Positions 13,523 to 28,048 of a stretch of 64,000 nt of DNA are shown here, one piece after another (the stretch's first letter is position 1; every line of letters begins with the position of its first letter). The stretch is taken from positions 1-64,000 of the forward strand of contig NZ_WQEG01000007.1 of NCBI RefSeq assembly GCF_013033515.1. Direction: 5' to 3'. Source of the DNA: Ruegeria sp. HKCCA6707 (GTDB lineage: Bacteria > Pseudomonadota > Alphaproteobacteria > Rhodobacterales > Rhodobacteraceae). The translations under genes were made by a program, and so were the position numbers. Under the pieces are notes generated by a model. The model saw only the letters and a list, made by a program, of their open reading frames with translations, was not told where the DNA came from and made no database searches.

Positions 13523-14149
13523 ATGACGAAATCAGATCCGTTCGGATTCGATATGTCCGTATCCAGCGCAAAGAAAAAGAAACCGCGCGGACGTCGGGGC
13601 ATGTCGGGCGCGTCCGAAACTTCGGTCCGCATCTGTGACCATCCCGATTGCGAAGAACCGGGCAAGTTTCGCGCCCCAAAGGCACCTGATGTGTTGGACG
13701 ACTTTTACTGGTTCTGTCAGCAGCATGTGCGTGAATATAACCAGAAATGGAACTTTTTCGACGGCACGACCGAGGCCGAGCTGAACGCACAACGCTCGAA
13801 AGACAAGGTGTGGGAGCGGGAAACCAAGCCCATGGGCGACCCCGAGGCGCGGGCCTGGGCGCGGCTGGGCATCGAAGACCCGCATCAGGTTCTGGGTGCA
13901 AACGGGACGCAGAACAAAGGCCGCACAGCCGGTACCGGTGGTCGCCGCCTGCCCCCGACCGAACGACGCGCGATCGAAATTCTCGAAGCCAATGACAGCT
14001 GGTCCAAGGCAGAAGTGCGCAAGGCCTATAAGAAATTGATCAAGGTTCTGCACCCTGACATGAATGGCGGTGACCGCAGTCAGGAAGAACAACTGCAAGA
14101 AGTCGTCTGGGCCTGGGATCAAATCAAGGACAGCCGGAACTTTAAGTGA
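13523..14149 (+). CDS. J-domain (DnaJ-like) protein
   Basis: A 208-residue protein with a C-terminal J domain (about 150-207) containing the Hsp70-activating HPD triplet in 'KLIKVLHPDMNGGD'. The N-terminal half is different from classical DnaJ: it has 'ICDHPDCEEPGKFRAP' and later 'WFCQQHVREYN', a Cys/Cys...Cys/His set that could hold a metal ion. It probably recruits DnaK to a specific client. AAGGAG lies before the ATG. The next gene starts within its stop codon. Confidence 0.88.
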   Translation: MTKSDPFGFDMSVSSAKKKKPRGRRGMSGASETSVRICDHPDCEEPGKFRAPKAPDVLDDFYWFCQQHVREYNQKWNFFDGTTEAELNAQRSKDKVWERETKPMGDPEARAWARLGIEDPHQVLGANGTQNKGRTAGTGGRRLPPTERRAIEILEANDSWSKAEVRKAYKKLIKVLHPDMNGGDRSQEEQLQEVVWAWDQIKDSRNFK

Positions 14150-14991
14150 CTTTGGCCAAGCAACAGCCGCAGACGTTGACAGCCATGGCCGTCGACGTGC
14201 TGACCACGGCAGATGGCCGTGAAAAAACCGCGAAGTCGCGAGACTATGCTGCGCGCTGGCAGGCCGCTCGGGCTGGGGGTGAACTGATTGAGATTGGCGC
14301 TGCAACGCCCCCCGATCACCCCTCGCGCCCGGAAAAGCCCGAACTGCTCAGCCCGCGCGATGTGCCAAAGCGCAAGCCGGGATCCCCGGCAGGGCGTATC
14401 GCGTTGCTGCATGCGGTGGCGCATATCGAGTTGAACGCTGTGGATCTGCACTGGGACATCATCGCGCGCTTTTCCCATGTGCCGATGCCCATGGGATTTT
14501 ACGACGATTGGGTCAAGGCGGCCGATGAGGAATCCAAGCATTTCAATCTGATCTGCGATTGCCTGAAAAACATGGGCAGTTTTTATGGCGCCCTGCCTGC
14601 CCATGCGGGCATGTGGCGGGCGGCCACCGATACGATGGAAGACCTGCAAGGCCGACTGGCCATCGTGCCCATGGTGCTTGAAGCGCGCGGGTTGGATGTG
14701 ACCCCTGGCATGATCGATATCTTCCAGAAGGCCGGAGCAACCGACGCCGTCGAAAGCCTAAAGGTCATTTATGCCGAAGAGGTCAGCCATGTGGCCTATG
14801 GGGCCAAGTGGTTCAACTTTGGCTGCGGGCGCGACAATAGCGACCCCAAAGAGGCGTTCCACGCACTGGTCAGAAAATACTTCAAAGGCGGGCTGAAGCC
14901 GCCATTTAACGAAGAAAAACGGGCCGAAGCCGGGCTGCCACCCGATTTCTACTGGCCCCTGGCTGATGAGTTGCCCGCTTACGTGCGCTGA
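14146..14991 (+). CDS. DUF455 family ferritin-like protein
   Basis: A 281-residue member of the DUF455 family, predicted to have a ferritin-like four-helix bundle. Repeated acidic/histidine pairs in 'AVAHIELNAVDLHWD', 'ADEESKHFNLI' and 'AEEVSHVAYG' look like di-metal ligands. Function in the family is not established in what I know. It starts with GTG overlapping the J-domain gene's stop (GTGA), so the two are translationally coupled. Confidence 0.85.
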   Translation: MTLAKQQPQTLTAMAVDVLTTADGREKTAKSRDYAARWQAARAGGELIEIGAATPPDHPSRPEKPELLSPRDVPKRKPGSPAGRIALLHAVAHIELNAVDLHWDIIARFSHVPMPMGFYDDWVKAADEESKHFNLICDCLKNMGSFYGALPAHAGMWRAATDTMEDLQGRLAIVPMVLEARGLDVTPGMIDIFQKAGATDAVESLKVIYAEEVSHVAYGAKWFNFGCGRDNSDPKEAFHALVRKYFKGGLKPPFNEEKRAEAGLPPDFYWPLADELPAYVR

Positions 14992-15114
14992 TCCAGCGCA
15001 TAACCTGACGCCCCCTCCTTAGACGTCCTGTCATTGTTACAAATGCCTGTTACCGCCCCGAGTATGGGCCGGTGTTCAGGCCCATATCCGATTTGTCCGA
15101 AAGGAGATTTAGAT

Positions 15115-15720
15115 ATGGAAAACCTGATCTTCTCAGTTCACGCGACGGCATTATGGTGCGCCTTGGGCGCGGCCCTGCTGCTTTGCGGTTATCTGTCTTT
15201 GAACTTGAGGCGCCCGCAACTTGGGCTCTGGCCAAGCGCCAGCGGCTGGCGACATCATACCGCCTTTGGATTGTTCCGGCTGTTTTGCGGGGCAACCGTA
15301 GTCTTTGCGTTTAGCGAGGTTTGGGTGAATGGTTGGGGCCATTGGATCCGCTATGCCATCGGCCTGCCCATCATGGTGCTGTCCTTTGGGATAACGCTTT
15401 GGGGTTATCGTTTTCTGGGCCTCGACAACACCTATTGCGAAAGCGAGGGTCTGGTGACCGGTGGCATGTATGCCTATTCCCGCAACCCTCAATATGTGAC
15501 GTCGGTCCTGTCCACGGTTGGGTTAGGGATCACCAGCGGATCCTGGACAACGCTGATGCTGGCGGCGATCCTCTTCGTGATCTACTTTTTGTTTGTCCTC
15601 AATGAAGAGCGGTGGCTGCTGCATGGCTATGGCCGAGCCTTTCAGGACTATATGCAATCGACCCCGCGCTTTGTGGACGAACGCAGTCTGATACGCGTGC
15701 GCGACGCCCTTCTCGACTAG
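15115..15720 (+). CDS. Isoprenylcysteine/phospholipid methyltransferase-like membrane protein
   Basis: A 201-residue membrane protein with four or five hydrophobic segments. The C-terminal half contains 'GGMYAYSRNPQYVTSVLS' and 'LNEERWLLHGYGRAFQDYMQSTPRF', the pattern of the ICMT/PEMT-like methyltransferase family, where the arginine/asparagine segment and the acidic pair contact S-adenosylmethionine. The substrate in bacteria is usually unknown. AAGGAG nine bases upstream fixes the ATG at 15115. Confidence 0.8.
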   Translation: MENLIFSVHATALWCALGAALLLCGYLSLNLRRPQLGLWPSASGWRHHTAFGLFRLFCGATVVFAFSEVWVNGWGHWIRYAIGLPIMVLSFGITLWGYRFLGLDNTYCESEGLVTGGMYAYSRNPQYVTSVLSTVGLGITSGSWTTLMLAAILFVIYFLFVLNEERWLLHGYGRAFQDYMQSTPRFVDERSLIRVRDALLD

Positions 15721-15865
15721 GCTGGGCCTATCAATAAGGCCAGTTTGAAAGAATAATCCGTTCAGCTTGCGCCGGGGGCGGCTTTCCCTTGCCCTCACCC
15801 GGAATATGTTGCACCACACACAGGTTCAAACCCGGTGAACGGGCCACAGGATAAGGACAAGGCGC

Positions 15866-16852
15866 ATGGCTGACGGATCGATTGACGTAAACGCAAAACC
15901 TACCGAAGAAATCTCGGTCCGTGACGTGTTCGGCATTGACAGCGACATGAATGTCAAAGGCTTTGCCGAGGCCACCGATCGTGTCCCAGCCATCGATCCG
16001 ACCTATAAGTTCGACCCTGAAACCACGCTGGCGATTCTGGCTGGCTTTAGCCATAACCGCCGCGTCATGATCCAAGGGTATCACGGAACGGGTAAGTCCA
16101 CCCATATCGAACAAGTCGCTGCCCGCCTGAATTGGCCTGCAGTCCGAGTGAACCTGGACAGCCATATCAGCCGGATCGACCTGATCGGTAAAGACGCCAT
16201 CAAATTGCGCGACGGGAAGCAGGTGACCGAATTCCACGAGGGTATCCTGCCCTGGGCCCTGCGCAATCCTGTTGCGATTGTGTTTGACGAATACGACGCG
16301 GGCCGTGCGGATGTGATGTTCGTGATCCAGCGTGTGTTGGAACATGACGGCAAGCTGACTTTGCTTGACCAGAACGAGATCATTACGCCGAACCCCAATT
16401 TCCGCTTGTTTGCTACGGCAAACACCGTTGGCTTGGGTGACACAACCGGCCTCTACCACGGCACCCAGCAGATCAACCAGGCTCAGATGGACCGTTGGTC
16501 TTTGGTGTCGACGCTCAACTATCTCAGCCACGATGCCGAGACGATGATCGTTCTCTCAAAAGCGCCGCATTACAACACCGCTGAGGGCCGTAAAACCGTC
16601 AGCCAGATGGTCACCGTGGCCGACCTGACCCGGACCGCCTTCATGAACGGCGACCTGTCTACGGTCATGAGCCCGCGGACCGTAATCAACTGGGCGCAGA
16701 ACGCCGAGATCTTCCGTAATGTTGGCTATGCCTTCCGACTGTCCTTCCTGAACAAATGTGACGAGCTGGAACGTCAGACCGTCGCTGAGTTCTACCAGCG
16801 TTGCTTTGACGAGGAACTGCCTGAGAGCGCAGCAAGCGCAAGTCTGGGCTAG
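15866..16852 (+). CDS. cobS: Cobaltochelatase AAA+ subunit CobS
   Basis: A 328-residue AAA+ ATPase that, with CobT, drives CobN to insert cobalt into hydrogenobyrinic acid a,c-diamide in aerobic cobalamin synthesis. Walker A '[13 protein letters not shown]' (about 72), Walker B 'IVFDEYDAG' (about 139) and sensor region '[14 protein letters not shown]' are intact, and the N-terminal '[13 protein letters not shown]' is typical of CobS. cobT, which often lies close downstream, is not found here or anywhere in the window; a racemase-like gene starts eight bases after the stop. Confidence 0.95.
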
Positions 16853-16859
16853 AGCTGCT

Positions 16860-17561
16860 TTGCATATCGGGCTGATCGGGGGAATTGGTGTTGCTGCGAC
16901 GGTGGCGTACTACCAGCGCCTGACAGCCGCAGTTTCCGCGCAGGGACAGGCGCTTGAACTGACCATTGTTCATGCCGACGTTCAGGAATTGATCCGCAAC
17001 AACCTGGCGGATCAACGTGACGCGCAAGCGCAGGTATATGCCAGACTGATCGACCGGCTGAAGGCCGCAGGTGCGGATTGCGCAGCGATCACGTCTTTGG
17101 GTGGTCATTTCTGCTTTGACGAGACAGTGTCAAGATCATCGCTGCCCTTGGTTTCGGCGGTCAAGCCGCTTGATGCGTATTTCCAGACCCAGGGGTTTTC
17201 CAAAGTCGGCCTGTTGGGAACGCGCGTCGTGATGGAAACCCGTCTGTACGGTCAGCTTCAGCATACTCAAGCTGTTACGCTCGATGATGAGCTCGAGCCC
17301 CTCGCCCAAACCTATCAGGACATGGCGGTCTCTGGTACCTGTAGCGGCGATCAGCGATCCCTCTTTCTGGATGCCGGACGACGCATGGTTAATGAATTGG
17401 GCGCGGACGCTGTTGTTCTTGCCGGAACAGACCTCAACCTTGCCTTTGAAGGCCAGTCACCAGGCTATCGCGTCGTCGATGCACTTGATGTTCATATCGA
17501 CCAATTGGCCAAGCTGGCCGCAGGTCATCTCTCACTGTCCGAAATCATACTAAGCGAATAG
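16860..17561 (+). CDS. Aspartate/glutamate racemase family protein
   Basis: A 233-residue protein of the Asp/Glu/hydantoin racemase superfamily. It starts MHIGLIGGIGVAATVAYYQ (TTG start codon, eight bases after cobS). The two-cysteine mechanism of the family is less obvious here: the first site reads 'AAITSLGGHFCFDE' and the second 'VVLAGTDLNLAFE', where the usual second cysteine (GCTE-like) is replaced by 'GTDL'. It may therefore not be an active racemase. The ribosome binding site is weak, suggesting translational coupling to cobS. Confidence 0.75.
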   Translation: MHIGLIGGIGVAATVAYYQRLTAAVSAQGQALELTIVHADVQELIRNNLADQRDAQAQVYARLIDRLKAAGADCAAITSLGGHFCFDETVSRSSLPLVSAVKPLDAYFQTQGFSKVGLLGTRVVMETRLYGQLQHTQAVTLDDELEPLAQTYQDMAVSGTCSGDQRSLFLDAGRRMVNELGADAVVLAGTDLNLAFEGQSPGYRVVDALDVHIDQLAKLAAGHLSLSEIILSE

Positions 17562-17572
17562 TCGAAAAGAAA

Positions 17573-17594
17573 AAGGAGAGCGGGAGCTCTCCTT
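17573..17594. terminator. Bidirectional terminator
   Basis: A 9-bp perfect stem (AAGGAGAGC / GCTCTCCTT) with a four-base loop, A-rich on the left and T-rich on the right. It lies between the convergent racemase-like gene and the first response regulator. Confidence 0.8.
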
Positions 17595-17632
17595 CTCTAT
17601 TTGGGCTTGGTTTCGTTCGAAAACCGTAACGA

Positions 17633-18562
17633 TCAGCCGAATTGAGCAACCTGGTCCTCGATCATCTCGGCCATTTCAACTGCCTTATCGATCAGGAACA
17701 ACGCTTCCATTTTCGAAGAGGCCTTAAGAGCGACTTCTTTTCCGACCTGGAACGCCATTGTGGTGTCTGTCGAGCTCGAGTCGGCAACTTCGCTCAGTGG
17801 TGCGCGCAATTGCCCAGGGCTGAGTTCCATTTCAGAGTCGAGCAGCAGCAGGAACACTCCGTTCCCCCAATAGGTCGCAAAATTGCGTTCGTTCTTGGTC
17901 GCCATCAACAGTGCGGCACCCGCAGCGCCCATGGTTTTGCGGAATTCCGCAGCACTGCTGGATTGGAAGATACGCTCGACATCAGCCACCTTGATGGCGA
18001 CGATTTTCGAAACCATCGAATGCATGGTCGACAGTTGAATCACATAGTTTTCAAACTCGGAAAGACCCATACAACCCGGTAGATCGCCAAAGAATAACGG
18101 ATCGCTAAGACGCATTTCGCTCGATACTTCGGGCTCTTGCCACGTATACCCGTCTGCTTCGAATACTTCGATGGCCGCGCGTCGTTCAGCCGCCATGCGA
18201 TATGCATCACCGAGGCGTTGCTTCAGATCCGAAAACTCAAACGGTTTGGTTACATAATCTGTCGCGCCTGCCTCAAACGCTTCATCAATGTACTGCTTTT
18301 GCACCATGGCGGTGACCATGATGATAGGCGTAAACGTGTAGCCCGGCAGCTTTCTGGCTTCCTCACACAGAGCGATGCCATTCATTTGCGGCATCTGAAC
18401 ATCCAAAAGCAGGCAGTCGAACACCTCTTTCGGGTCATTCAAGATATCAAGTGCCTCTTGTCCACTTCTAGCGGTCACAATGTCTTCATAGCCAAAGGCG
18501 GCAAGCACGCTTTCGAGAAGCTCCAGAATGCTTGGATCGTCGTCCACAGCAAGTATACGCAT
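17633..18562 (-). CDS. Response regulator: REC plus degenerate GGDEF-like domain
   Basis: A 309-residue protein with a full receiver domain: acidic pair at 7-9, phospho-acceptor Asp54 in 'CLLLDVQMPQMNG', and the conserved Lys in 'DYVTKPFEF' (about 105). There is no DNA-binding helix-turn-helix. The remaining 180 residues resemble the second half of the regulator at 20106-21239, and the segment 'FATYWGNGVFLLLL' (about 230) sits where a diguanylate cyclase would have GGDEF, so I infer an inactive GGDEF-like output. The upstream gap separates it divergently from the acyl-homoserine-lactone synthase. Partner kinase: probably the histidine kinase at 22877-24304. Confidence 0.85.
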   Translation of the reverse strand: MRILAVDDDPSILELLESVLAAFGYEDIVTARSGQEALDILNDPKEVFDCLLLDVQMPQMNGIALCEEARKLPGYTFTPIIMVTAMVQKQYIDEAFEAGATDYVTKPFEFSDLKQRLGDAYRMAAERRAAIEVFEADGYTWQEPEVSSEMRLSDPLFFGDLPGCMGLSEFENYVIQLSTMHSMVSKIVAIKVADVERIFQSSSAAEFRKTMGAAGAALLMATKNERNFATYWGNGVFLLLLDSEMELSPGQLRAPLSEVADSSSTDTTMAFQVGKEVALKASSKMEALFLIDKAVEMAEMIEDQVAQFG

Positions 18563-19125
18563 AACTTTTCACCAACCTCTTTGCACCGGGCATACCGAAG
18601 GCTTTTGATCACCGTGAATAGTTCGGAAATCCGGCGCGTGAAACATATAGGGTCTTAACAGTATGACTAAAGAAAGCGGCAAAAGGGTGACGTTAGATTG
18701 GCTCGCATATGTCTGCCCAAAACTTTTCGGCATTCCGGTACAGATCAGCGGGCGAACACACGTCAAACGGGAACGCCGAGGCGTTTTATCCAGAATGCAA
18801 GCCACCTCAGCACCTGATTTGGCCCGATCTTTTCGTTTCTCCACCCGCCACAATCAGACTGCGAGGCAGGTAAAACGAATCGAAATAAGAAAAACTTATT
18901 ATGTTTATTTTCAATATTTTAACAGACCCCTTTCGCGCTTGGGCCTCTAAGGCCAGCATGCCCGGAGTGTTAATAACTGGGCTTTCTGTGACCCAAGTGC
19001 CACTCTACACGCCTTGAGGGAGGTGAAAGTGACACACAATCAGGAATTTCTGCCATTTACGTCACTAGGTTGTAGACAATCCCTGCTGAATCTTGTCATA
19101 AGTGTGGCGAATGTATGGGAAAAAT
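18563..19125. other. Divergent intergenic region between response regulator and AHL synthase
   Basis: About 560 bases without a convincing gene. A 95-codon open frame at 18663-18950 (plus) has no good ribosome binding site or recognisable features. The stretch 18880-18925 is strongly A/T-rich and includes an inverted repeat (AATAAG, five A, CTTATT at 18884-18900), a likely promoter/operator area for the synthase. I found no sequence resembling a canonical lux box. Confidence 0.5.
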
Positions 19126-19199
19126 ATGGACCAACCACTCAGGTATGCGCAGGAATATCCGGCGCCGGACGCTTTTCCGGACCTGCAACCGGCCAATGA
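19029..19199 (+). CDS. Possible short leader ORF overlapping the AHL synthase start
   Basis: A 56-codon GTG-initiated frame with an excellent ribosome binding site (GGGAGG, then five bases, then GTG). It runs into the synthase gene in a different frame. The peptide has no recognisable features. It could be a translated leader that influences synthase expression, or chance; the strength of the Shine-Dalgarno relative to that of the synthase is the only evidence. Confidence 0.25.
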   Translation: MTHNQEFLPFTSLGCRQSLLNLVISVANVWEKYGPTTQVCAGISGAGRFSGPATGQ

Positions 19200-19875
19200 C
19201 ACTCGGGCCGCACCAACAGCTGGAGCGCAACGCAATTTATATGCGTTGAAGCGCAAGTCGCCGACACCTCATGGTGAAATCGGCGGGGTTCAGGCGACCG
19301 TCATGAACTTTCGCAACATCCATGAGCACGGCACTTTGCTCGCAAAATACCTTGAGATGCGTAAGCATATCTTTATCGACCGGCTGAACTGGCAGGTCGG
19401 TGAGGTAGACGGTATGGAATTCGACCAATACGACACCCCTGCATGCCAATGGGTGGTTCTACATGAATTCGGTGAGGTTCTTGGTGGTGTCAGGCTGATG
19501 CCGACCACCGCCCAATGCGGAATTTACAGCTATATGCTGCGCGATGCGCAACGCGGCATTTTGAAAGGTCTTCCGACAGACATATTGTTCATTGACGCAC
19601 CTGTAAAAAGCAACGTTTGGGAAGCGTCTAGGTTCTTCATCAGCGATAGTGTTTCGTCTTCGCGCAGATTGGCGATCCAACAAGAGCTTTTTCATCAAAT
19701 GACACTCGCAGCCCGAGCCGGTGGTGCGACAAGAATTTTGGGGATCGTCCCTGCGGTTTGGGCGCGTTGGTCACGCCGTCTGGGTGTTGGCGCATCACCT
19801 ATCGGTGCAAAATTCTCAATTGACGGGACATGGAGCCAATCGGTCTTGTTCAACATCGAGAGCTACGCCAGCTGA
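19126..19875 (+). CDS. Acyl-homoserine-lactone synthase (LuxI family)
   Basis: Makes N-acyl-homoserine lactone from S-adenosylmethionine and an acyl donor. Counting from the internal Met at 19303, all eight invariant LuxI residues occur with the family spacing: R20, F24, W30, D41, D44, R64, E107 and R110 ('EMRKHIF', 'LNW', 'FDQYD', 'GGVRLMPT', 'WEASRF'). The ATG at 19126 adds 59 residues rich in Pro/Ala that LuxI proteins normally lack; the ATG at 19303 gives the usual 190-residue length, but neither has a strong ribosome binding site. No luxR gene is adjacent; instead response regulators, a P450 and a histidine kinase flank it. Activity is strongly expected; acyl chain unknown. Confidence 0.92.
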   Translation: MDQPLRYAQEYPAPDAFPDLQPANDTRAAPTAGAQRNLYALKRKSPTPHGEIGGVQATVMNFRNIHEHGTLLAKYLEMRKHIFIDRLNWQVGEVDGMEFDQYDTPACQWVVLHEFGEVLGGVRLMPTTAQCGIYSYMLRDAQRGILKGLPTDILFIDAPVKSNVWEASRFFISDSVSSSRRLAIQQELFHQMTLAARAGGATRILGIVPAVWARWSRRLGVGASPIGAKFSIDGTWSQSVLFNIESYAS

Positions 19876-19999
19876 AAGAGATTTGTCAGCTTACCGCGCT
19901 GCAATCGCCCGCATTCTAACCGCACCTAATCTGCTCGCGTGCGCGTGGCGCGCCTTGACCTTTCGCGATAGCTAAGATCCAAGCGCGCCTCAATAACGT

Positions 20000-20021
20000 C
20001 AAGAAATTACCCAATTTCTTG
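20000..20021. repeat. Inverted repeat downstream of AHL synthase
   Basis: Arms CAAGAAATT and AATTTCTTG, nine bases each, with a four-base spacer ACCC. It lies between the synthase stop and the start of the second response regulator. A short T-rich stretch follows, so it may be a weak terminator, or an operator for the regulator gene. Confidence 0.5.
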
Positions 20022-20105
20022 TGCGTTTTCTTGGATTTCGCCGCCGTTTTGTCTCAGTTGCTTCCTAGTGTGCCTAGGCTAGTCGAGTCAGAAGCGGTTA
20101 CAAGT

Positions 20106-21239
20106 ATGAAACAGGTCAATCTCAGCAGCGATCGGTTCCAAAGCAAACTTGAGATGCGTGCACTCAAGCAGGCCACTCTCAGTGTGTTGGCCGTTGACGA
20201 TGAACCCGGCATTCTTGAAATGCTCCAGTCTGCCTTGCCTGAATTGGAAAACTGTCAAGTCACAACCGCCACAACAGCCGACGATGCCTTGGAATTAATT
20301 CGAAGTGCCAAAACGCCCTTCGACTGTTTGCTTTTGGACATTCAGATGCCCGAAAAAAACGGCATCGAGTTGCTGCGCGAAATCCGACGCGTACCCGGCA
20401 ACCAGAACACGCCTGTAATTATGCTCACGGCAATGGACGATCGCAAACATATCGAAGATGCGTTCCTCGAAGGTGCCTTCGATTACATCACCAAGCCCTT
20501 TGATTTCTTCGAGTTGCGCAGCCGCATGAATGCAGCACATCTGTTGATGATGGAGCGGATCAAAACGCAGACTTCGACAGCCTCGATCCGGAACCTGCGC
20601 GAAGAATTGGACCACAGTCAGCAGTTCAGGTTTGATGATCCGCTTACTCTTGATGGGCTAAAACGCTGCCTTCGTTGCGTTGAATTCAGCAACTATCTCG
20701 AACAGATGACGCGCGCGCGCCGCTCAGACACCTGGGTCACCGCCGTTAAACTGCAGGACGCTCAATATCGGTTTGATCTGGGCGACTATGGCGGCTTCCG
20801 TCGCGCCATCTCTGACATCGGAGAATGTATCGAAGGCGTAACGCGCGACAGCGAATCTATCTTCTCATATCGCGGCAGCGGTGTATTCCTAATTGTGACC
20901 CACGGGCGCGAGTGTACAGATCAGATACCCTCAGAAGAGGTCCTAAACCAAAAGCTGGCAATGATCCTCAGCAACCGATGCGCCTCGGTCCATCTGAAAA
21001 CTGTAATGAGCACGGCGGTTTCCATGCGTTCGATTTCCAAGGCCGGTGTCTCGGCAGCCCTAAACAAAGCCCTCGATCAGGTCAGCGAACGAGAGGACGC
21101 CTTTCGCAAAGGCACAATCGTACCGTTGCGCCCCGTTTCTAAGGATGTGTCGGACACAAAGAAAAAGGGCACAGGGCGTCTATTCGAAACGGTGATGCAA
21201 GAGCTTTACGGGAACAATTCCTATTTGGCCCGGAAATAA
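20106..21239 (+). CDS. Response regulator: REC plus degenerate GGDEF-like domain (paralogue)
   Basis: A 377-residue protein with an N-terminal tail of about 25 residues and a receiver domain with acidic pair at 31-32, Asp78 in 'CLLLDIQMPEKNG' and 'DYITKPFDF'. It is clearly homologous over the full length to the regulator at 17633-18562. In its C-terminal domain 'SIFSYRGSGVFLIV' aligns with the GGDEF loop of diguanylate cyclases but lacks the catalytic GGDEF residues. There is no HTH. I infer that it signals by protein contact or ligand binding. The ATG at 20106 is chosen; a second Met at codon 17 is an alternative. Confidence 0.85.
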   Translation: MKQVNLSSDRFQSKLEMRALKQATLSVLAVDDEPGILEMLQSALPELENCQVTTATTADDALELIRSAKTPFDCLLLDIQMPEKNGIELLREIRRVPGNQNTPVIMLTAMDDRKHIEDAFLEGAFDYITKPFDFFELRSRMNAAHLLMMERIKTQTSTASIRNLREELDHSQQFRFDDPLTLDGLKRCLRCVEFSNYLEQMTRARRSDTWVTAVKLQDAQYRFDLGDYGGFRRAISDIGECIEGVTRDSESIFSYRGSGVFLIVTHGRECTDQIPSEEVLNQKLAMILSNRCASVHLKTVMSTAVSMRSISKAGVSAALNKALDQVSEREDAFRKGTIVPLRPVSKDVSDTKKKGTGRLFETVMQELYGNNSYLARK

Positions 21240-21242
21240 AAC

Positions 21243-22604
21243 CTAGCTGACACGTTCGGCATTCAGGACAAGCGGCCCACTGGTGCGCATTGTGAATGTT
21301 AGAACCGGCTCGGGTAATTCAAAATCAGAAAGCGAGAAATTGATCCGCCTCAGCAACGAGGCCATCAAGACCATGATCTCGGTTTCTGCATATTGCGCGC
21401 CGATGCATATTCTTGGGCCGTCTCCGAACGGAATATACTGCCCGCGGGGCAAATTGGCGTTCATGAACCGCTCAGGTCGGTACTCGGCCGGCGCGTCCCA
21501 CAGTCGCTCATTCCTGTGCAGTGAATAAACTGGATAGAAAAGCGCGTCGCCCTTTGCGATCTTGATTCCTTTTATTTCAACATCTGCCGTCGCATCGCGC
21601 GCAAAGAATGCCGCCGAAGGATAAAGGCGCAGCGTTTCTTTGATATGGGCGCGAAGCAATGGCATCTTTTCAAGATCGGCAAATTCAATCGGCCCACTGG
21701 CGCGCACCGACAGTATCTCGTTTCGGATGCTGTTTTGGACTTCCGGGTTCAAAGCCAGCAAATAGTAACCCCACGCCAGAGCATTGGCCGAAGTTTCATG
21801 GCCGGCCACGACAAATGTCAGCAGGTTATCGACCGTCGTTTCCTTGTCCTCGAAATCCGTCTTCAACGCTTCGATCATGAAATCCAGAAAGTCTTGCGGC
21901 TCTTCCCGATTTTGCGCTCGACGTTGTTCAATGACCAGTCGCGCCAGATCGCGCATCTTGGTAACGGGTGCTTTGCTGACGACCCATTTCTTTCGCGGCA
22001 ACCACTTGGGCAATCCCATCAGGTCAAAGAGCGAAAGATCAGAAATATAGTTAAAATAGGCGATGAGCCCAACACGGATCTGTTCAGCGCTGACCTCTTC
22101 ATTTCCCGAGAAAATCACCCGAGAGATATTGGTCAGTGTAGACGCGGGCGCAATTTGAGCCATGTCCACGGGGCCTTCGTTTTCGGCCAGCGAGTCGGCG
22201 ACCTCCATGCCAGTTTCGGCAAAGTGACGTGCAAGAACCGGCAGATTTCTGGCCGCGAAAAGCGGCGAATACCTGCGCCTCTGCTGGCGCCATTTTTCAC
22301 CCTCAGACAAAATCAAACCGTTGCCGACGGCAGATCCGATGATGTCCTTGGTGAACTTCGCCTTTGGAAATGAGCGCCCCTGTCCAACAAGGAGTTCCGT
22401 GATCATTTCCGGATCACAAATGTAATGGATGTTCAAAGGGCCGCGAACATACGTCTCGCGCAACGTTTCTGCCGGTATGACTTCGAGCATGTTTCGCCCG
22501 GCCGATCTTGCAAATTGCAAAAGTGACACCGGTTCCTCAGCAAGCCTTGCCGAAACGGGGGTGACATCAAATTGCCTCATTTTCGTCATGCCAGCAGCGG
22601 TCAA
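21243..22604 (-). CDS. Cytochrome P450
   Basis: A 453-residue haem monooxygenase. The I-helix oxygen-activation motif is 'VVAGHETSANALAWG' (about 270), the ExxR motif is in 'IKETLRLYPSAAFFARDA', and the haem-thiolate loop is 'FGDGPRICIGAQYAETE' with Cys400. It resembles the broad bacterial group that includes fatty-acid hydroxylases such as CYP102-type domains. Its stop lies three bases from that of the convergent response regulator and it is divergent from the histidine kinase. A TTG start at 22604 has AAGGA upstream; ATG codons at 22589 and 22580 are alternatives. Modification of the AHL acyl chain is an attractive but untested role. Confidence 0.9.
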   Translation of the reverse strand: MTAAGMTKMRQFDVTPVSARLAEEPVSLLQFARSAGRNMLEVIPAETLRETYVRGPLNIHYICDPEMITELLVGQGRSFPKAKFTKDIIGSAVGNGLILSEGEKWRQQRRRYSPLFAARNLPVLARHFAETGMEVADSLAENEGPVDMAQIAPASTLTNISRVIFSGNEEVSAEQIRVGLIAYFNYISDLSLFDLMGLPKWLPRKKWVVSKAPVTKMRDLARLVIEQRRAQNREEPQDFLDFMIEALKTDFEDKETTVDNLLTFVVAGHETSANALAWGYYLLALNPEVQNSIRNEILSVRASGPIEFADLEKMPLLRAHIKETLRLYPSAAFFARDATADVEIKGIKIAKGDALFYPVYSLHRNERLWDAPAEYRPERFMNANLPRGQYIPFGDGPRICIGAQYAETEIMVLMASLLRRINFSLSDFELPEPVLTFTMRTSGPLVLNAERVS

Positions 22605-22876
22605 ACCGTAATTCCTTTAAGATATTCGAGAACGCTCTGCCCCATTTACGGAGATATTTTCCGGATTGGCAACGTTATCGCCAAATTTTCGCCTCAACTC
22701 GGGCACTTAAGCAACAAGAAGTCTTTGGGCTCGACCGTTTCAACCAAACGGTTGCGCTGAACAATCACCGGGCTTGATTGATGACTATTGTCAAACTGTG
22801 AACCCAATTCCGACCAACTACGTCCTCATTGTTCAGCTAAGACCGAAACGAACGTTCGAATAACGAAGTTATTGCA
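22605..22876. promoter_or_regulatory. Divergent promoter region, P450 / histidine kinase
   Basis: Around 270 bases with no gene. It holds an imperfect repeat TTGGC...GCCAA (22666-22684) nearer the P450 gene and two adjacent palindromes directly in front of the kinase start codon (separate entry). Confidence 0.45.
22849..22873. promoter_or_regulatory. Twin palindromes at the histidine kinase start
   Basis: CGAACGTTCG (22849-22858) is a perfect 10-bp palindrome, followed immediately by AATAACGAAGTTATT (22859-22873), perfect six-base arms around GAA. They end three bases before the ATG, where the ribosome binding site should be. Operator or translational control site are both possible. Confidence 0.45.
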
Positions 22877-24304
22877 ATGACAGCCATCGAAGCAGCTCAA
22901 CTGGCCCGGTCAAAGAACGAACCGGAAGACCGGCTACTGCAGAATATCAAAGACTACACGGCCATGAGCTTTGAGCTCTTGTGGCAGCGGCAAGCGATTT
23001 TTCTTGCCACGACGATACTGACCGCGTTCTTCTTTGATCCGATAAATGCGCTGTTGTTTTATGGCACAATCCTGATTTGCGAAGCTCAGGACCTTATCCT
23101 GGCCAAACGCGTGCCAAAGCTAAGGCCAGAACAACACAAAGCCATCGCAATGATGGTCATGTGGATACTGCTAAACACTATCCTCAGTTCGATCGCCATA
23201 TGCTTGTACGCCGTCTCAGTCGCCTTCAAGCAAGAATCCGGTGGACATTTCACCCCTTTGTTCTTCCTTTTCGCAGCTGCCTTGTTCGCGGCGATGAACA
23301 ACCATCAATTCGTTTGGGCAATGATCGTACGACTGGCCATGTACGGCATTTCGTTCATGATCATTGTCGTCAAAGACCTGTGGGTCGTCAGGCCACCGCT
23401 GTCGTCCGAGCTTTGGCTGCATTTCTTCACAGTTGTCTTTGTAATGTACTTTCTGATCGACTGTTCGCTTGTTTTCCTCAAGCTCTATCGAAGAAATCTG
23501 GAACAGTTGGAGAGATTGAAAGAAGAACATGAAAGAACAAAAGCGGCCTATGTCGCAAAAACCCAGTTCATATCGACAATTAGCCACGAGCTTCGCACGC
23601 CCCTAACTTCGATCAAGGGGTCGATTGACCTGATCAATTCCGGTGCTTTGGGTGAGGTTCCCGACAAGATGCTGAACCTCGTGCAGTTGGCCGGAAAGAA
23701 CAGTGAGCGGCTGGCCTCGTTGATCAACGACATCCTGGACATCCAGAAAATGGAATCCGGTGAGATGAGTTATCGCGAAATCACGATCAGCGCTCAGGCT
23801 TTGACCCGCGAGGCGATTTCGTCGAACCTTGGATTTGCCAGCGCCCACAACGTCGAAATCAAAGAAGATATTCCGAAAACGGAAGAACTGTTGGTGCAAG
23901 GCGATGACGTTCGTCTTCAGCAGGTCTTGACCAACATGATTTCCAATGCGGCCAAATTTTCTTTTGACGGCGGGGAAATCACTGTCGGATGCAAGCGGAT
24001 CGGCGACCGCGTGCGTTTCTTTGTCAAGGATCAGGGTATCGGAATACCACAAGGCAGTCGCGACAAGGTGTTTGATCGTTTCTCACAGATCGACTCGTCG
24101 GACGAGCGTCATGCGGGTGGAACTGGGCTTGGCATGAATATTTCCAAGCAGATTGTCGAACACTTTGGCGGAACGATTGATTACGAAAGCACACTTGGCA
24201 AAGGCAGCACGTTCTACGTTGATCTTCCGCTGTCCACCAAGGAAGAGCGCGCGGCATCCGCTGTTTCGGTGATACCGCAAGCCAGAATAGTACCATCCGA
24301 GTAA
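22877..24304 (+). CDS. Membrane sensor histidine kinase
   Basis: A 475-residue kinase with six hydrophobic segments between about 40 and 202 and almost no periplasmic domain, then a short coiled linker and the catalytic core. His237 lies in the H-box 'FISTISHELRTPLTSIKGS'; the N-box 'NMISNAAKFSF', G1 'VKDQGIGIPQ' and G2 'GTGLGMNIS' are intact. The membrane-embedded sensor suggests detection of a hydrophobic or membrane-associated signal. With no response regulator fused or directly following, the two receiver proteins on the other side of the P450 gene are its most likely partners. Expression may depend on the palindromes at the start codon. Confidence 0.9.
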   Translation: MTAIEAAQLARSKNEPEDRLLQNIKDYTAMSFELLWQRQAIFLATTILTAFFFDPINALLFYGTILICEAQDLILAKRVPKLRPEQHKAIAMMVMWILLNTILSSIAICLYAVSVAFKQESGGHFTPLFFLFAAALFAAMNNHQFVWAMIVRLAMYGISFMIIVVKDLWVVRPPLSSELWLHFFTVVFVMYFLIDCSLVFLKLYRRNLEQLERLKEEHERTKAAYVAKTQFISTISHELRTPLTSIKGSIDLINSGALGEVPDKMLNLVQLAGKNSERLASLINDILDIQKMESGEMSYREITISAQALTREAISSNLGFASAHNVEIKEDIPKTEELLVQGDDVRLQQVLTNMISNAAKFSFDGGEITVGCKRIGDRVRFFVKDQGIGIPQGSRDKVFDRFSQIDSSDERHAGGTGLGMNISKQIVEHFGGTIDYESTLGKGSTFYVDLPLSTKEERAASAVSVIPQARIVPSE

Positions 24305-24315
24305 AGCACCCGCTG

Positions 24316-25797
24316 CTACAATTCCTTCAGGTCGAAGGCAGCCACTGGCTGAGCGCCATAAGACAAGCCCGACTTGAAATGTAGCTCCGAGCCGTCGACG
24401 CGCTTGATCTTGAAGGCTTTGCTGGTCAGATCTCGCGCCTCTTCGCCCGGCGGCAGTTCGCCATTCCATCCTCCAAGCGGATGATTGGCGCAGCAGTCAA
24501 AGTCGCAAAGATCGAATGTCTGAACGACCTTTACTGCACCGGGCAACTTTGTGCCTTCGCAGCGATACTGCTTTGGGAAACGGGGATCGTTGCAGACCAT
24601 GTCTTGAACCTCGACGTCATCATTCCACTCAAAGCGATCAAAAGCCTCGCGCGGCGGGCCGGCATTTTCTGGATACTCGGCATCGTAGAGACCCAACAGC
24701 GTATAGCGATCATTCCATTCGCTTGTGCGCCCCTTTTTTGCATAGGTCGTCCGCGTCTGGGCCGAGTTGAAGATCGACCAAAACCCTTTGCGCGCCCGCG
24801 GTGGCATATTGCCCGTCTTGTCCGGCGGCCCCAGGAATTTGAAAACCTTGCCGCCCTGATTATCCTGCCCGATCAAACCCGGTCGGCGGTCATTCAGAAC
24901 CCAGTTGGCCAGAACGATAAAGTCTCGCATCGCGACCCCATCGATCGAGAACGCGGCGTGGCAATTGTAGAACCGGTTGTTGTAGATACACCAGTCCTCG
25001 GCCCCCAGCTCTGGCTCGACGGCGTTATCACGGATAAAGGCAAAGCTATTGTCGTGAATGCGCACATTGCGGTTCCGGGTTATGCGCGGTTCTTTCTTGG
25101 TGCCCTCGATCCGCTTCTCGCGAATGTCCATTCGGATGGCATTGAACGCGTGGCTGATCTTGCAGTTTCGAACCACAACCTGGCCTTCTATGTCGAAAGC
25201 CCCCAACATCGCGCCGTTGAAAAAACTGGCGTCAAAATGGTCGCGCTTTCCCTTCACCTCGGGCCAGGTATGGCGCCCATCCCACATGTCATGATCAGGG
25301 TCCTGCACCCATGTGATGCCATCCAGAACCAGACCTTTGGTGGGTTTCTGATCTGTCTGTCGCGCATACAGGAAATACCGCCCACCTGTGCCGCTACATC
25401 CCCGCACCGTCACATCCCTGCAGGATCTGAGGTAGATCGCATTGGGCCAGCAATTTTCAAAACTCAGGTTTTCGATCACGATATGATCTGCACCAAACAG
25501 TTTGAGAAAAGCAAAATCGCCATCCAGCGGCTCCAGCCCGCCATGCCGCCCGTCATCGCGTGTTTTTCCACCGTCCAGCACCGCGCGGCCCCGGCGTGGC
25601 CCGCGAATTGTGATGGGGTGTGTTTTGGTTCCCGAGATCGCGATCACGGTTGGTGTGGGATAACGGCCCGGCAAAAGCTCAATCGTATCGCCGGGCCTGG
25701 CCTTGCCAATCGCCGTTTGCAGATCAAAAGCCCAGTCAGACGACTGATCGGTGTTGTCGCGTCGACGCAAGCTGGGGGCCGCAAAGATCAATGCCAT
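24316..25797 (-). CDS. Right-handed parallel beta-helix (pectate-lyase-like) protein
   Basis: A 493-residue protein. The N-terminal part 'AIGKARPGDTIELLPGRYPTPTVI' and 'ITIRGPRRGRAVLDGG' are typical of right-handed parallel beta-helix proteins, and repeated short turns ('VIENLSFENCWPNAIYLRSCRDVTVRGC', shown in part) follow. Such folds belong to polysaccharide lyases, epimerases and hydrolases. I see no clear signal peptide at the chosen start, although the 29 codons upstream are open and partly hydrophobic. Next to xylose genes, a role on plant or algal polysaccharide is plausible. A long inverted repeat lies just upstream. Confidence 0.7.
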   Translation of the reverse strand: MALIFAAPSLRRRDNTDQSSDWAFDLQTAIGKARPGDTIELLPGRYPTPTVIAISGTKTHPITIRGPRRGRAVLDGGKTRDDGRHGGLEPLDGDFAFLKLFGADHIVIENLSFENCWPNAIYLRSCRDVTVRGCSGTGGRYFLYARQTDQKPTKGLVLDGITWVQDPDHDMWDGRHTWPEVKGKRDHFDASFFNGAMLGAFDIEGQVVVRNCKISHAFNAIRMDIREKRIEGTKKEPRITRNRNVRIHDNSFAFIRDNAVEPELGAEDWCIYNNRFYNCHAAFSIDGVAMRDFIVLANWVLNDRRPGLIGQDNQGGKVFKFLGPPDKTGNMPPRARKGFWSIFNSAQTRTTYAKKGRTSEWNDRYTLLGLYDAEYPENAGPPREAFDRFEWNDDVEVQDMVCNDPRFPKQYRCEGTKLPGAVKVVQTFDLCDFDCCANHPLGGWNGELPPGEEARDLTSKAFKIKRVDGSELHFKSGLSYGAQPVAAFDLKEL

Positions 25798-25808
25798 AGC
25801 GTATCCAA

Positions 25809-25835
25809 TCAATTTTCCTGAAACAGGAAAATTGA
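25809..25835. promoter_or_regulatory. Long inverted repeat before the beta-helix gene
   Basis: Perfect 12-base arms TCAATTTTCCTG and CAGGAAAATTGA around AAA, beginning 12 bases upstream of the beta-helix start codon. Position and perfection suggest an operator or a hairpin controlling translation. Confidence 0.6.
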
Positions 25836-25928
25836 ACGAAATTCGACCGCGCGGCGCAAGTGTTTTGCAACAAGGCGGCACCAATGGCGCGGCTCACCGG
25901 CCTCATACAGGGATCTGACGATCAGCGG

Positions 25929-27236
25929 TTAAACGAACCTATTGACGTAGTTTTCCAGTTTCTCTTGCCGACCCGAGCGCGGATTCGGGTTGATCCCCTG
26001 GTCCAAGACGCGCGCGGTGATCTGGTCCAGATCGCTGTCCAACATCGCCTCAGCTTCCGGGTCGGACCAACCCGCATAGCGTTCGCTCAGCGCCGCCTCC
26101 AGACCACCATCTTCGATCATCGCCGCAGCAGCTTTCAGACCACGGGCGCAGATGTCCATCCCACCGACATGAGCAGCCACCAGATCTTCGGCATCAATCG
26201 ACTGACGGCGGATCTTGGCGTCAAAGTTGGTGCCCCCGGTGGTGAAACCTCCATCCTTGAGGATGTGGTAATAGGCCAGCGCCACCTCGGGCGTGTTGTT
26301 GGGGAACTGATCGGTATCCCAGCCCGACTGGTAATCGTTGCGGTTCATGTCGATCGACCCCAGCATCCCTTCTGCCGTGGCCACCGCAATCTCGTGTTCG
26401 AAACTGTGGCCAGCCAGAATGGCGTGCCCCTGTTCCAGATTCAGCTTCACCTCATTCTCAAGCCCATACTTTCTTAGGAACCCGATGCAGGTTGCGGCGT
26501 CGTAATCATATTGATGTTTTGACGGTTCCTGCGGTTTTGGCTCCACCAGAATGGTGCCTTTGAAGCCGATCTTGTGCTTGTATTCGACAACCATGTTCAG
26601 AAAGCGGCCCATGTGATCCAACTCGGCCGTCAGATCCGTGTTGAGCAGGGTTTCATACCCTTCACGCCCGCCCCAAAGTACATAGTTTTCACCGCCCAGT
26701 TTATGAGTCGCATCGATGCACGATTTTACGGTCGCCGCAGCAAAAGCAAACACGTCTGGATCAGGGTTTGTACTGGCGCCTGACATCCAGCGGCGGTGGC
26801 TGAACATATTGGCCGTGCCCCAAAGCAGCTTGGTGCCAACCTGCTGCATTTTCTCACCGATATAGTCGGTGATCTCGTTCAAAGTGCGCAGATTGTCAGC
26901 GAAATTGCCCTGCTCGGGCCGAACATCAACGTCGTGCCAGCAGAAGTAAGGCTGCCCCAGAATGTCAAACATCTCAAAGGCGATGTCCGCCTTCAGACAG
27001 GCGCGGGACATGTCGTCTTGCGGGTACCAAGGGCGCTCAAAGGTCGGACCGCCAAACGGATCGCCGCCTTCCCATGCAAAGGAATGCCACCATGCGACAG
27101 CAAAACGCAGGTGATCTTCCATACGCTTGCCCATCACGATTTCGTCTGGGTTGTAATGGCGGAAAGCCAGCGGGTTCTTGCTGTCCAATCCTTCGTATCG
27201 AACTTTTTCGATACCCTCAAAAAAACCGCTGGTCAT
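25929..27236 (-). CDS. xylA: Xylose isomerase
   Basis: Interconverts D-xylose and D-xylulose with two divalent metal ions. The 435-residue protein has the family's long form and the active-site pieces '[16 protein letters not shown]' (catalytic His and Asp), '[17 protein letters not shown]' and the metal-binding '[19 protein letters not shown]'. It starts ATG eight bases after the stop of the ATPase gene, so it belongs to the xylFHG-xylA transcript. Product goes to xylulokinase at 35544-37001. Confidence 0.97.
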
Positions 27237-27244
27237 GGTCTTAC

Positions 27245-28048
27245 CTACTCTGTTTTTTGTCCTGGTTGCTTGCCCAGAATAATCATGGACAGCAAATCGT
27301 CATCTGTAACGTCGGCGATGTCGACCGTTCCAACCAGTTTCCCGTTTTTCATGACCGACGCGCGGTCACACAGTTCCATCACCGCATGTACATCATGGTC
27401 GATAAGGAATATTCCGATCCCCTGCGCCTTGAGCTGATGGATCAGATCCGCCACCATCTGCGTTTCATGAGGGCCCAAAGCTGCGGTCGGCTCGTCCATG
27501 ATCAGAATACGTGCGTTGAAATAGACCGCCCGTGCGATGGCAACCGATTGTCTTTGCCCACCCGAAAGCGCCGAGACCGGGTCGTTGAACTTTTGAAAGT
27601 TCGGATTGAGCTGCGCCATGATCTTGCGGCATTCGGCCTCCATCGCGGCATCATTGACCAGACCCATTGGCGTGATCATCTCGCGCCCCAGAAACAGGTT
27701 CGAGGTCGCATCCAGATTGTCGGCCAGGGCAAGCGTCTGATAGATCGTCTCGATATTGTTGGCACGCGCATCGCGCGGGTTGCCGATTTCGACCGGTTTG
27801 CCATCAATCAGGATCTCGCCCTGATCCATCTGGTAAGCACCCGACAACACTTTGATCAGCGTCGATTTCCCCGCCCCGTTATGGCCCAGAAGGCCAACAA
27901 CCTCACCGGGATAAAGATCGACAGAGACATGATCCACCGCCTTGATCCCGCCAAATGAGATCGAGATGTCCCGCATCTCGACCAGAGGCGGTTGGCCGGA
28001 GCCACGACCAGAACTTGAAACCTGTTTTTGAGTGTCCTGAGTTTCCAT
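27245..28048 (-). CDS. xylG: Sugar ABC transporter ATP-binding protein (xylose type, single NBD)
   Basis: The energy-coupling subunit of a ribose/xylose-class importer. Walker A '[17 protein letters not shown]', signature '[16 protein letters not shown]' and Walker B '[13 protein letters not shown]' are present. At 267 residues it has one nucleotide-binding domain, unlike the two-domain XylG of E. coli, and resembles FrcA-type short subunits. The start ATG overlaps the permease stop by one base (TGATG). Symbol given by context; specificity is set by the binding protein. Confidence 0.88.

Follow-up and report, generated by a model that had tools for sequence, protein, structure and literature searches.

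Descriptions of acyl-homoserine lactone (AHL) signalling through LuxI synthases usually pair LuxI with LuxR. Sensor kinases occur in other autoinducer systems: CqsA/CqsS and LqsA/LqsS/LqsR place an autoinducer synthase beside a kinase with six transmembrane helices, and LuxN/AinR is a hybrid kinase with a receiver domain and about nine transmembrane helices. We analysed 64,000 nucleotides of Ruegeria sp. HKCCA6707 (contig NZ_WQEG01000007.1, positions 1 to 64,000; hereafter the window), in which a five-gene block at 17633-24304 encodes, in this order, a receiver protein (RR1), LuxI, a second receiver protein (RR2), a cytochrome P450 and a histidine kinase. We lean, taking the proposal as a whole, towards reading this cassette as a LuxR-independent N-acyl signalling circuit.

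The closest relatives of the cassette in the literature are orphan luxI genes of roseobacters with adjacent histidine kinase genes, grouped as topologies H, I and J, for which a phosphorelay was suggested (Cude and Buchan 2013, PMC3824088). They resemble the cassette in having luxI without luxR and a histidine kinase gene nearby, but differ in that the term P450 occurs zero times in the text of that paper. R. conchae TW15 is listed there with topologies A, B1, and J. The TW15 genome encodes three LuxI above the cut-off, and one of them (L136) belongs to a kinase-linked five-gene locus; by elimination, and from the text of the paper without its figure, topology J of TW15 would correspond to the five-gene cassette. 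In that case RR1, a receiver protein with no kinase domain, may be what topology J shows upstream as a reversed "HK".

Like the cassette, the LuxM/AinS and LuxN/AinR pairs of Vibrio set an AHL synthase beside a membrane kinase receptor, and the LuxN comparison is also drawn in PMC3824088. Here, however, the kinase has six membrane helices in its model and no receiver domain, the receivers are separate proteins, and the synthase is LuxI-type. CqsA and LqsA differ from LuxI in synthase chemistry. P450 action on AHLs has precedents in two papers: a 2017 study tentatively attributed the poly-hydroxylated long AHLs found in strain MOLA 401 to a P450 (PMC5479921), and CYP102A1 is reported to act on C12-C20 AHLs, oxidising the chain at positions omega-1 to omega-3 (PMC3355433). 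CYP102A1 is like the cassette enzyme in being a P450, with AHL oxidation proposed for the latter, but the cassette P450 (453 amino acids) has no fused reductase; neighbours under 110 amino acids, e.g., ferredoxin, were not looked for.

A sequence-only reading of the locus had stated that no system of this composition was described. That statement is not fully supported: orphan luxI with adjacent kinases was published in 2013, and P450 action on AHL was proposed for MOLA 401 in 2017. The literature searched, with most subscription journals outside it, yielded no report that places a P450 in such a cassette or that describes pseudo-GGDEF receivers, LuxR/kinase exclusivity, or the FeeM replacement treated below. 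The direction of that reading was right and the reading is partly supported. Judged from its genes, the cassette is a variant of AHL-type signalling with a probable kinase receptor.

LuxI beside a membrane kinase or beside LuxR

All five open reading frames (ORFs) of the block are open, and Pfam assigns all five proteins. The LuxI-type AHL synthase (19126-19875, plus strand) is 249 amino acids long from its likely ATG and carries an N-terminal extension with an FPDL motif. The ORF is open from 19102, and relatives' starts indicate that translation probably begins at 19126. The protein scores 71.2 bits against Autoind_synth (PF00765; cut-off 24). The eight residues that we take to be the classical LuxI set, with positions tested by alignment, are all present (R87, F91, W97, D108, D111, R131, E174, and R177, 257-aa ORF numbering) and are identical in 102/102 LuxI rows, which include the window and a few repeats. 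ORFs, Pfam and alignment together confirm the sequence-only description of a LuxI with eight invariant residues, two paralogous receivers, a P450 and a histidine kinase in a 6.7-kb block. In three relatives, the nonsynonymous distance (dN) was 0.07-0.29 with synonymous sites saturated or nearly so; saturation left the ratio dN/dS obtainable only for LuxI, where comparison with two relatives gave 0.08.

The sensor histidine kinase (22877-24304, plus strand; 475 amino acids) matches only HisKA (PF00512) and HATPase_c (PF02518) in Pfam. Its phospho-acceptor, His237, is kept in 88/88 rows, the window and some repeats included. No Pfam family matched the N-terminal region, and although database records call relatives "HAMP domain-containing", Pfam listed no HAMP match. 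A structure model (predicted local distance difference test, pLDDT, 75; predicted template-modelling score, pTM, 0.45) places six membrane-length helices in the sensor region, as had been read from the sequence; read off the model, they span residues 35-52, 55-81, 87-118, 125-141, 146-171, and 178 onward. Across 22 aligned sequences, the residues D26, Q37, R38, E69, D72, Q119, N142, H143, Q144, R152, and D167 do not vary. Among the Foldseek matches listed for the model were kinase cores, which leave the sensor region uninformed.

LuxR is absent from window positions 10001-34000 by tblastn with two queries and by a hidden Markov model (HMM) of 26 LuxR sequences, which rules out a LuxI/LuxR pair of the usual adjacent kind. 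A LuxI search of the window's family matched 259 of 394 genomes. We mapped the neighbours of 60 LuxI places (L035-L094), namely the 41 that scored highest next to the window and a further 19 from lower ranks picked before neighbours were seen, by tblastn and the LuxR HMM; loci under 5 kb were left out of the HMM scan, and ORF starts were set mechanically in the neighbour, tree, residue, and extension counts. With the window included, 30 of the 61 LuxI lie beside the kinase (≤5.5 kb), 29 beside LuxR (≤1.5 kb), and none beside both; the other two, both at contig ends, adjoin neither. One LuxI lineage therefore occurs at the mapped loci in two mutually exclusive settings, LuxR or membrane kinase, and at the kinase-linked loci the kinase occupies LuxR's place. 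On a tree of 97 of the 102 LuxI rows and two LuxI from the window genome, the LuxR label changes 3 times and the kinase label 8 times, against shuffled means of 25 and 30. The split thus clusters on the tree, and the counts should not be read as so many separate events.

The motif F[PS][DEAN]L is present in 41/67 kinase-linked LuxI ORFs and in 0/29 LuxR-linked ones. Across L035-L094, kinase-linked LuxI tend toward a longer, variable N-terminal extension with an FPEL/FPDL-type motif (window 19126-19330). In Roseovarius marisflavi (L150), a separate LuxI-LuxR pair at about 15-16.6 kb lies ~8.5-9.3 kb from the kinase-LuxI-P450 cassette. Three LuxI matches exceed the Pfam cut-off in the window genome (30 contigs, 4.54 Mb). 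The remaining two each adjoin luxR, presumably with trigger factor as a neighbour at one and crotonyl-CoA reductase at the other; these pairs resemble topologies A and B of PMC3824088. In the same genome a 251-aa ORF at L097 7581-8336 matches Autoind_synth weakly, its 22.2 bits falling short of the cut-off. We take this ORF to be possibly OlsB-like.

FeeM and a methyltransferase beside the same kinase family

In a class-wide sample the kinase was found in 2/289 genomes (E 1e-70), both in the window's own family, and in that family it occurs at 51 places in 48/394 genomes (E 1e-70); because at most four candidates were scored per genome in the kinase and P450 searches, the counts may be low. 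LuxI lies within 5 kb at 34 of the 51 places, FeeM lies beside 7, one (L182) is at a contig end, and 9 have neither in the stretch examined. Within the 17 places not beside LuxI (L179-L195), the 7 FeeM genes (PF21926) are ≤2.2 kb from the kinase, centre to centre, loci under 4 kb having been left out of the scan. FeeM is present in 7/394 family genomes (E 1e-12), and 7/7 are the kinase-adjacent ones; the window genome has no match at E 1e-12. In five loci FeeM scores 116-138 bits (cut-off 27), and methyltransferase families also score above cut-off. A methyltransferase adjoins FeeM in 7/7 cases, ICMT/PEMT-like in 3 and Methyltransf_25-like in 4. FeeM with a methyltransferase thus replaces LuxI beside this kinase family. 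On plasmids, a synthase gene lies within 1 kb of the kinase in 12/12 records that carry it, LuxI in 7 and FeeM in 5; spacing is near-identical among the seven with LuxI, so they represent few independent cases.

A kinase tree was built by a quick method with the Shimodaira-Hasegawa-like approximate likelihood ratio test (SH-aLRT) as sole support and midpoint rooting, omitting L099, L100, L103, L212, L213, and repeats. FeeM-linked kinases form two separate clades on it. One clade, whose methyltransferases are ICMT-like, falls within the LuxI-linked kinases with branch support, which implies that FeeM took over from LuxI there. The Methyltransf_25-like clade falls in the same large group, where its branching position lacks resolution. 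In the Roseovarius marisflavi genus (84 genomes) there are 9 FeeM copies in 7 genomes; a methyltransferase lies beside 9/9, and the kinase is in the stretch examined for 7/9.

As side observations, methyltransferase and FeeM are fused into one ORF in L183, and the intervals noted at the FeeM loci are L179 8890-11784, L180 7505-10479, L181 8914-11757, L183 7151-10350, L184 8959-12110, L185 7128-10401, L186 7237-10356, and L215 8914-11757. On a plasmid of Sulfitobacter OXR-159 (L227 4167-6627), an IS256-type transposase gene abuts a short methyltransferase gene beside FeeM and the kinase. At L189, a kinase place without LuxI or FeeM, two LuxR-like genes adjoin.

FeeM, an N-acyl amino acid synthase, adjoins in other genomes the same kinase family as the cassette LuxI, but its product, by family name, is an N-acyl amino acid. 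Since the kinase family keeps to the side of one or other N-acyl-amide synthase, its most likely role is to act as receptor for what that synthase makes. A methyl ester would be expected from FeeM with a carboxyl methyltransferase, whereas LuxI gives a lactone, and we hypothesise that the kinase family meets both as neutral N-acyl amino acid esters. N-acyl alanine methyl esters (NAMEs) occur in Roseovarius and Loktanella, did not activate LuxR-type receptors in assays, and can undergo terminal oxidation, according to PMC6296433 and PMC11580390. The latter, a 2024 paper, says that no candidate NAME synthase genes were found in previous studies; its sole use of the FeeM paper is to note that N-acylated amino acids may influence transcription. 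NAMEs are also reported there, and in earlier work, not to interfere with AHL signalling, which is neither for nor against a separate kinase receptor. The FeeM-methyltransferase pair is a candidate NAME synthase.

Receivers, P450 and recurrence of the cassette

RR1 (17633-18562, minus strand; 309 amino acids; receiver Asp54) and RR2 (20106-21239, plus strand; 377 amino acids from its likely ATG) are paralogues, with 35.8% identity over 240 amino acids. The RR2 ORF is open from 20019, and its start at 20106 is probable from the starts of relatives. The receiver domain (PF00072) is the only Pfam match in RR1, with E 1.1e-28 and 1.2e-27 in RR1 and RR2, and no Pfam family matched either C-terminal domain. 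The receiver Asp is present in 106/108 receiver proteins, the window and some repeated loci included, and the other two have gaps there. A profile of 27 receiver proteins matches WspR (3bre) over positions 3-279, covering both domains. The RR1 model (pLDDT 82.9) has WspR, DgcR, and PleD as its best full-length Foldseek matches, WspR at E 1e-14, yet whole-length superposition is poor (template-modelling score about 0.4) and a second structure aligner gave mainly receiver-domain matches. RR1 and RR2 share with PleD and WspR a receiver and a GGDEF fold, but the signature is replaced, e.g., by YWGNGVF in RR1 and YRGSGVF in RR2. GG(D/E)EF occurs at that place in 0/107 aligned receiver proteins, one further row being a gap, which rules out active diguanylate cyclases. 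RR1 and RR2 are best called receiver plus pseudo-GGDEF proteins.

The region between the divergent RR1 and luxI genes (18563-19125) contains conserved blocks in an alignment of 11 loci. CACAC lies at 19033 (-93 relative to the likely LuxI ATG) and GTGTG at 19102 (-24). In the 11 Ruegeria-type loci CACAC is at -93/-94, for L134 by inference from a sequence that ends 24 bases earlier, and GTGTG is at -24 in 9/11. These blocks are a possible promoter or operator; a known structured RNA was excluded, as no Rfam family reached its gathering score within 14000-28000. Such blocks would suit a scheme in which the kinase and receivers regulate luxI and P450 expression on an unrelated cue while the AHL signals via LuxR elsewhere in the genome, which does hold two LuxR-LuxI pairs. 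We regard that scheme as quite improbable: kinase-linked and LuxR-linked LuxI are mutually exclusive at mapped loci, the kinase family adjoins FeeM in two separate clades, which a ligand link fits better, and Pfam and the RR1 structure matches reveal no DNA-binding domain in RR1 or RR2.

The P450 gene (21243-22604, minus strand) scores 258.6 bits against PF00067, and its product has the heme Cys, I-helix Thr, and ExxR motifs (FGDGPRICIG, AGHETS, and KETLR at 393, 267, and 322). Cys400 and Thr271 are kept in 48/48 rows. The gene is separated from the divergent kinase gene by an intergenic region at 22605-22876, as given by the ORF positions. With genes on both strands, the five-gene block is a cassette and not one operon.

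Orthologues of the P450 (≥59% identity) occur in 9/394 family genomes, and 9/9 carry the kinase (Fisher p 3e-9 among 48 kinase genomes, E 1e-70, kinship of genomes ignored); the two genes are linked within 7.5 kb in 5/9. Named genomes, when scanned, contained 40 loci with the P450. When their neighbours were clustered together with the window, the five cassette families were found in 35, 32, 28, 27, and 18 of 41 loci, and the next most frequent family in 6/41. In the 28 named loci with P450 of ≥73% identity (L129-L155, L166), the kinase is present in 28/28, a receiver in 28/28, and LuxI in 26/28. One of these without LuxI, L151, is a short contig; in L131 (R. profundi) the cassette is split, with P450-kinase-RR2 on one contig and LuxI-RR1 on another (L204). 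LuxI, P450, and kinase occur together in 30 of the 40 named loci, in 11 orders and orientations; L131, L151, L156, and L157 lack LuxI or the kinase and are outside the 30. All 10 genomes whose P450 locus is without LuxI, or has only a contig-end fragment of it (L157), have a LuxI match, and 2 of the ten already belong to the 394. The genes stay together while order and flanks vary, a pattern suggestive of joint function or joint transfer. The sequence-only reading had named a lack of co-conservation as one ground for refutation; the five genes are co-conserved across genera, so on this ground it is not refuted, and recurrence across P450 loci in varied arrangements rules out chance clustering. 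On a 371-kb Sulfitobacter plasmid, a P450-kinase-LuxI trio (L214 5947-9609) is followed by TetR and RND efflux genes.

What the P450 acts on admits other readings. It could clear the signal: oxidation would make the AHL less active and so reset the circuit, and the kinase would sense unmodified AHL. CYP102A1 oxidation does lower AHL bioassay activity (PMC3355433), and the P450 gene, which converges on RR2 and diverges from the kinase gene, could be controlled separately; the methyltransferase partner at FeeM loci, however, looks biosynthetic rather than degradative, and we think clearance unlikely. Co-occurrence alone does not separate tailoring from clearance. Alternatively, the P450 could hydroxylate a fatty acid or acyl precursor before LuxI, or an unrelated lipid, with the kinase sensing that lipid. 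Its PDB relatives include CYP46A1, CYP4B1, and CYP102A1, as a lipid substrate would suggest, but 34 kinase-bearing LuxI loci have no such P450 within 7.5 kb, so the P450 product is not the constant ligand; we regard this alternative as quite improbable.

A proposed N-acyl signalling circuit

In the LuxR-independent circuit that we favour, the mechanism of which we infer from genomic association, LuxI would make an AHL, probably long-chain, and AHL production by the predicted enzyme is very probable. The P450 would oxidise the acyl chain to a modified AHL; we place action of the P450 on AHL somewhat above an even chance, and CYP102A1 hydroxylation of AHLs and the MOLA 401 proposal make this step plausible and do not prove it. 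The six-helix membrane kinase would bind the modified AHL, an AHL ligand being likely, and would then phosphorylate, or dephosphorylate, both receivers, a transfer that we hold highly likely. The degenerate GGDEF domains would relay the signal through protein contact or nucleotide binding, with neither c-di-GMP synthesis nor a DNA-binding domain; whether output passes through them is an evenly balanced call.

Several observations weigh against this circuit. The two further LuxR-LuxI pairs of the window genome mean that the cassette AHL could act through LuxR. The labels change few times on the LuxI and kinase trees, so the counts are not independent; kinase and P450 counts may be low, as noted above, and the named and handle locus sets overlap, five loci being identical (L146=L035, L154=L038, L166=L036, L161=L197, L163=L199). 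Nine of the 51 kinase places (L187-L195) are without LuxI or FeeM in the stretch examined, some on short contigs. P450 orthologues are found in only 9/48 kinase genomes, and in the clade of P450s with 59-63% identity only 5/12 named loci have LuxI and 5/12 the kinase. Two of the 9 Roseovarius-genus FeeM copies are without the kinase in the stretch examined: for one, the contig ends 0.7 kb away, and for the other, 14.5 kb of sequence contains no kinase, although two RR1-like proteins lie within 5 kb. On a Palleronia plasmid, the annotation shows no kinase near a FeeM of 33% identity.

More broadly, we see an even chance that neutral N-acyl amino acid esters have a receptor class of their own, founded by the six-helix kinase, and that the synthases adjoining it are interchangeable: LuxI, with the P450 as optional tailoring, or FeeM with an ICMT/PEMT or Methyltransf_25 methyltransferase, in two clades. 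FeeM and the methyltransferase beside the kinase are gene candidates for NAME synthesis and perception. Orphan LuxI enzymes gain a candidate receptor in the neighbouring membrane kinase, and the LuxR-or-kinase settings of one LuxI lineage make receptor replacement testable.

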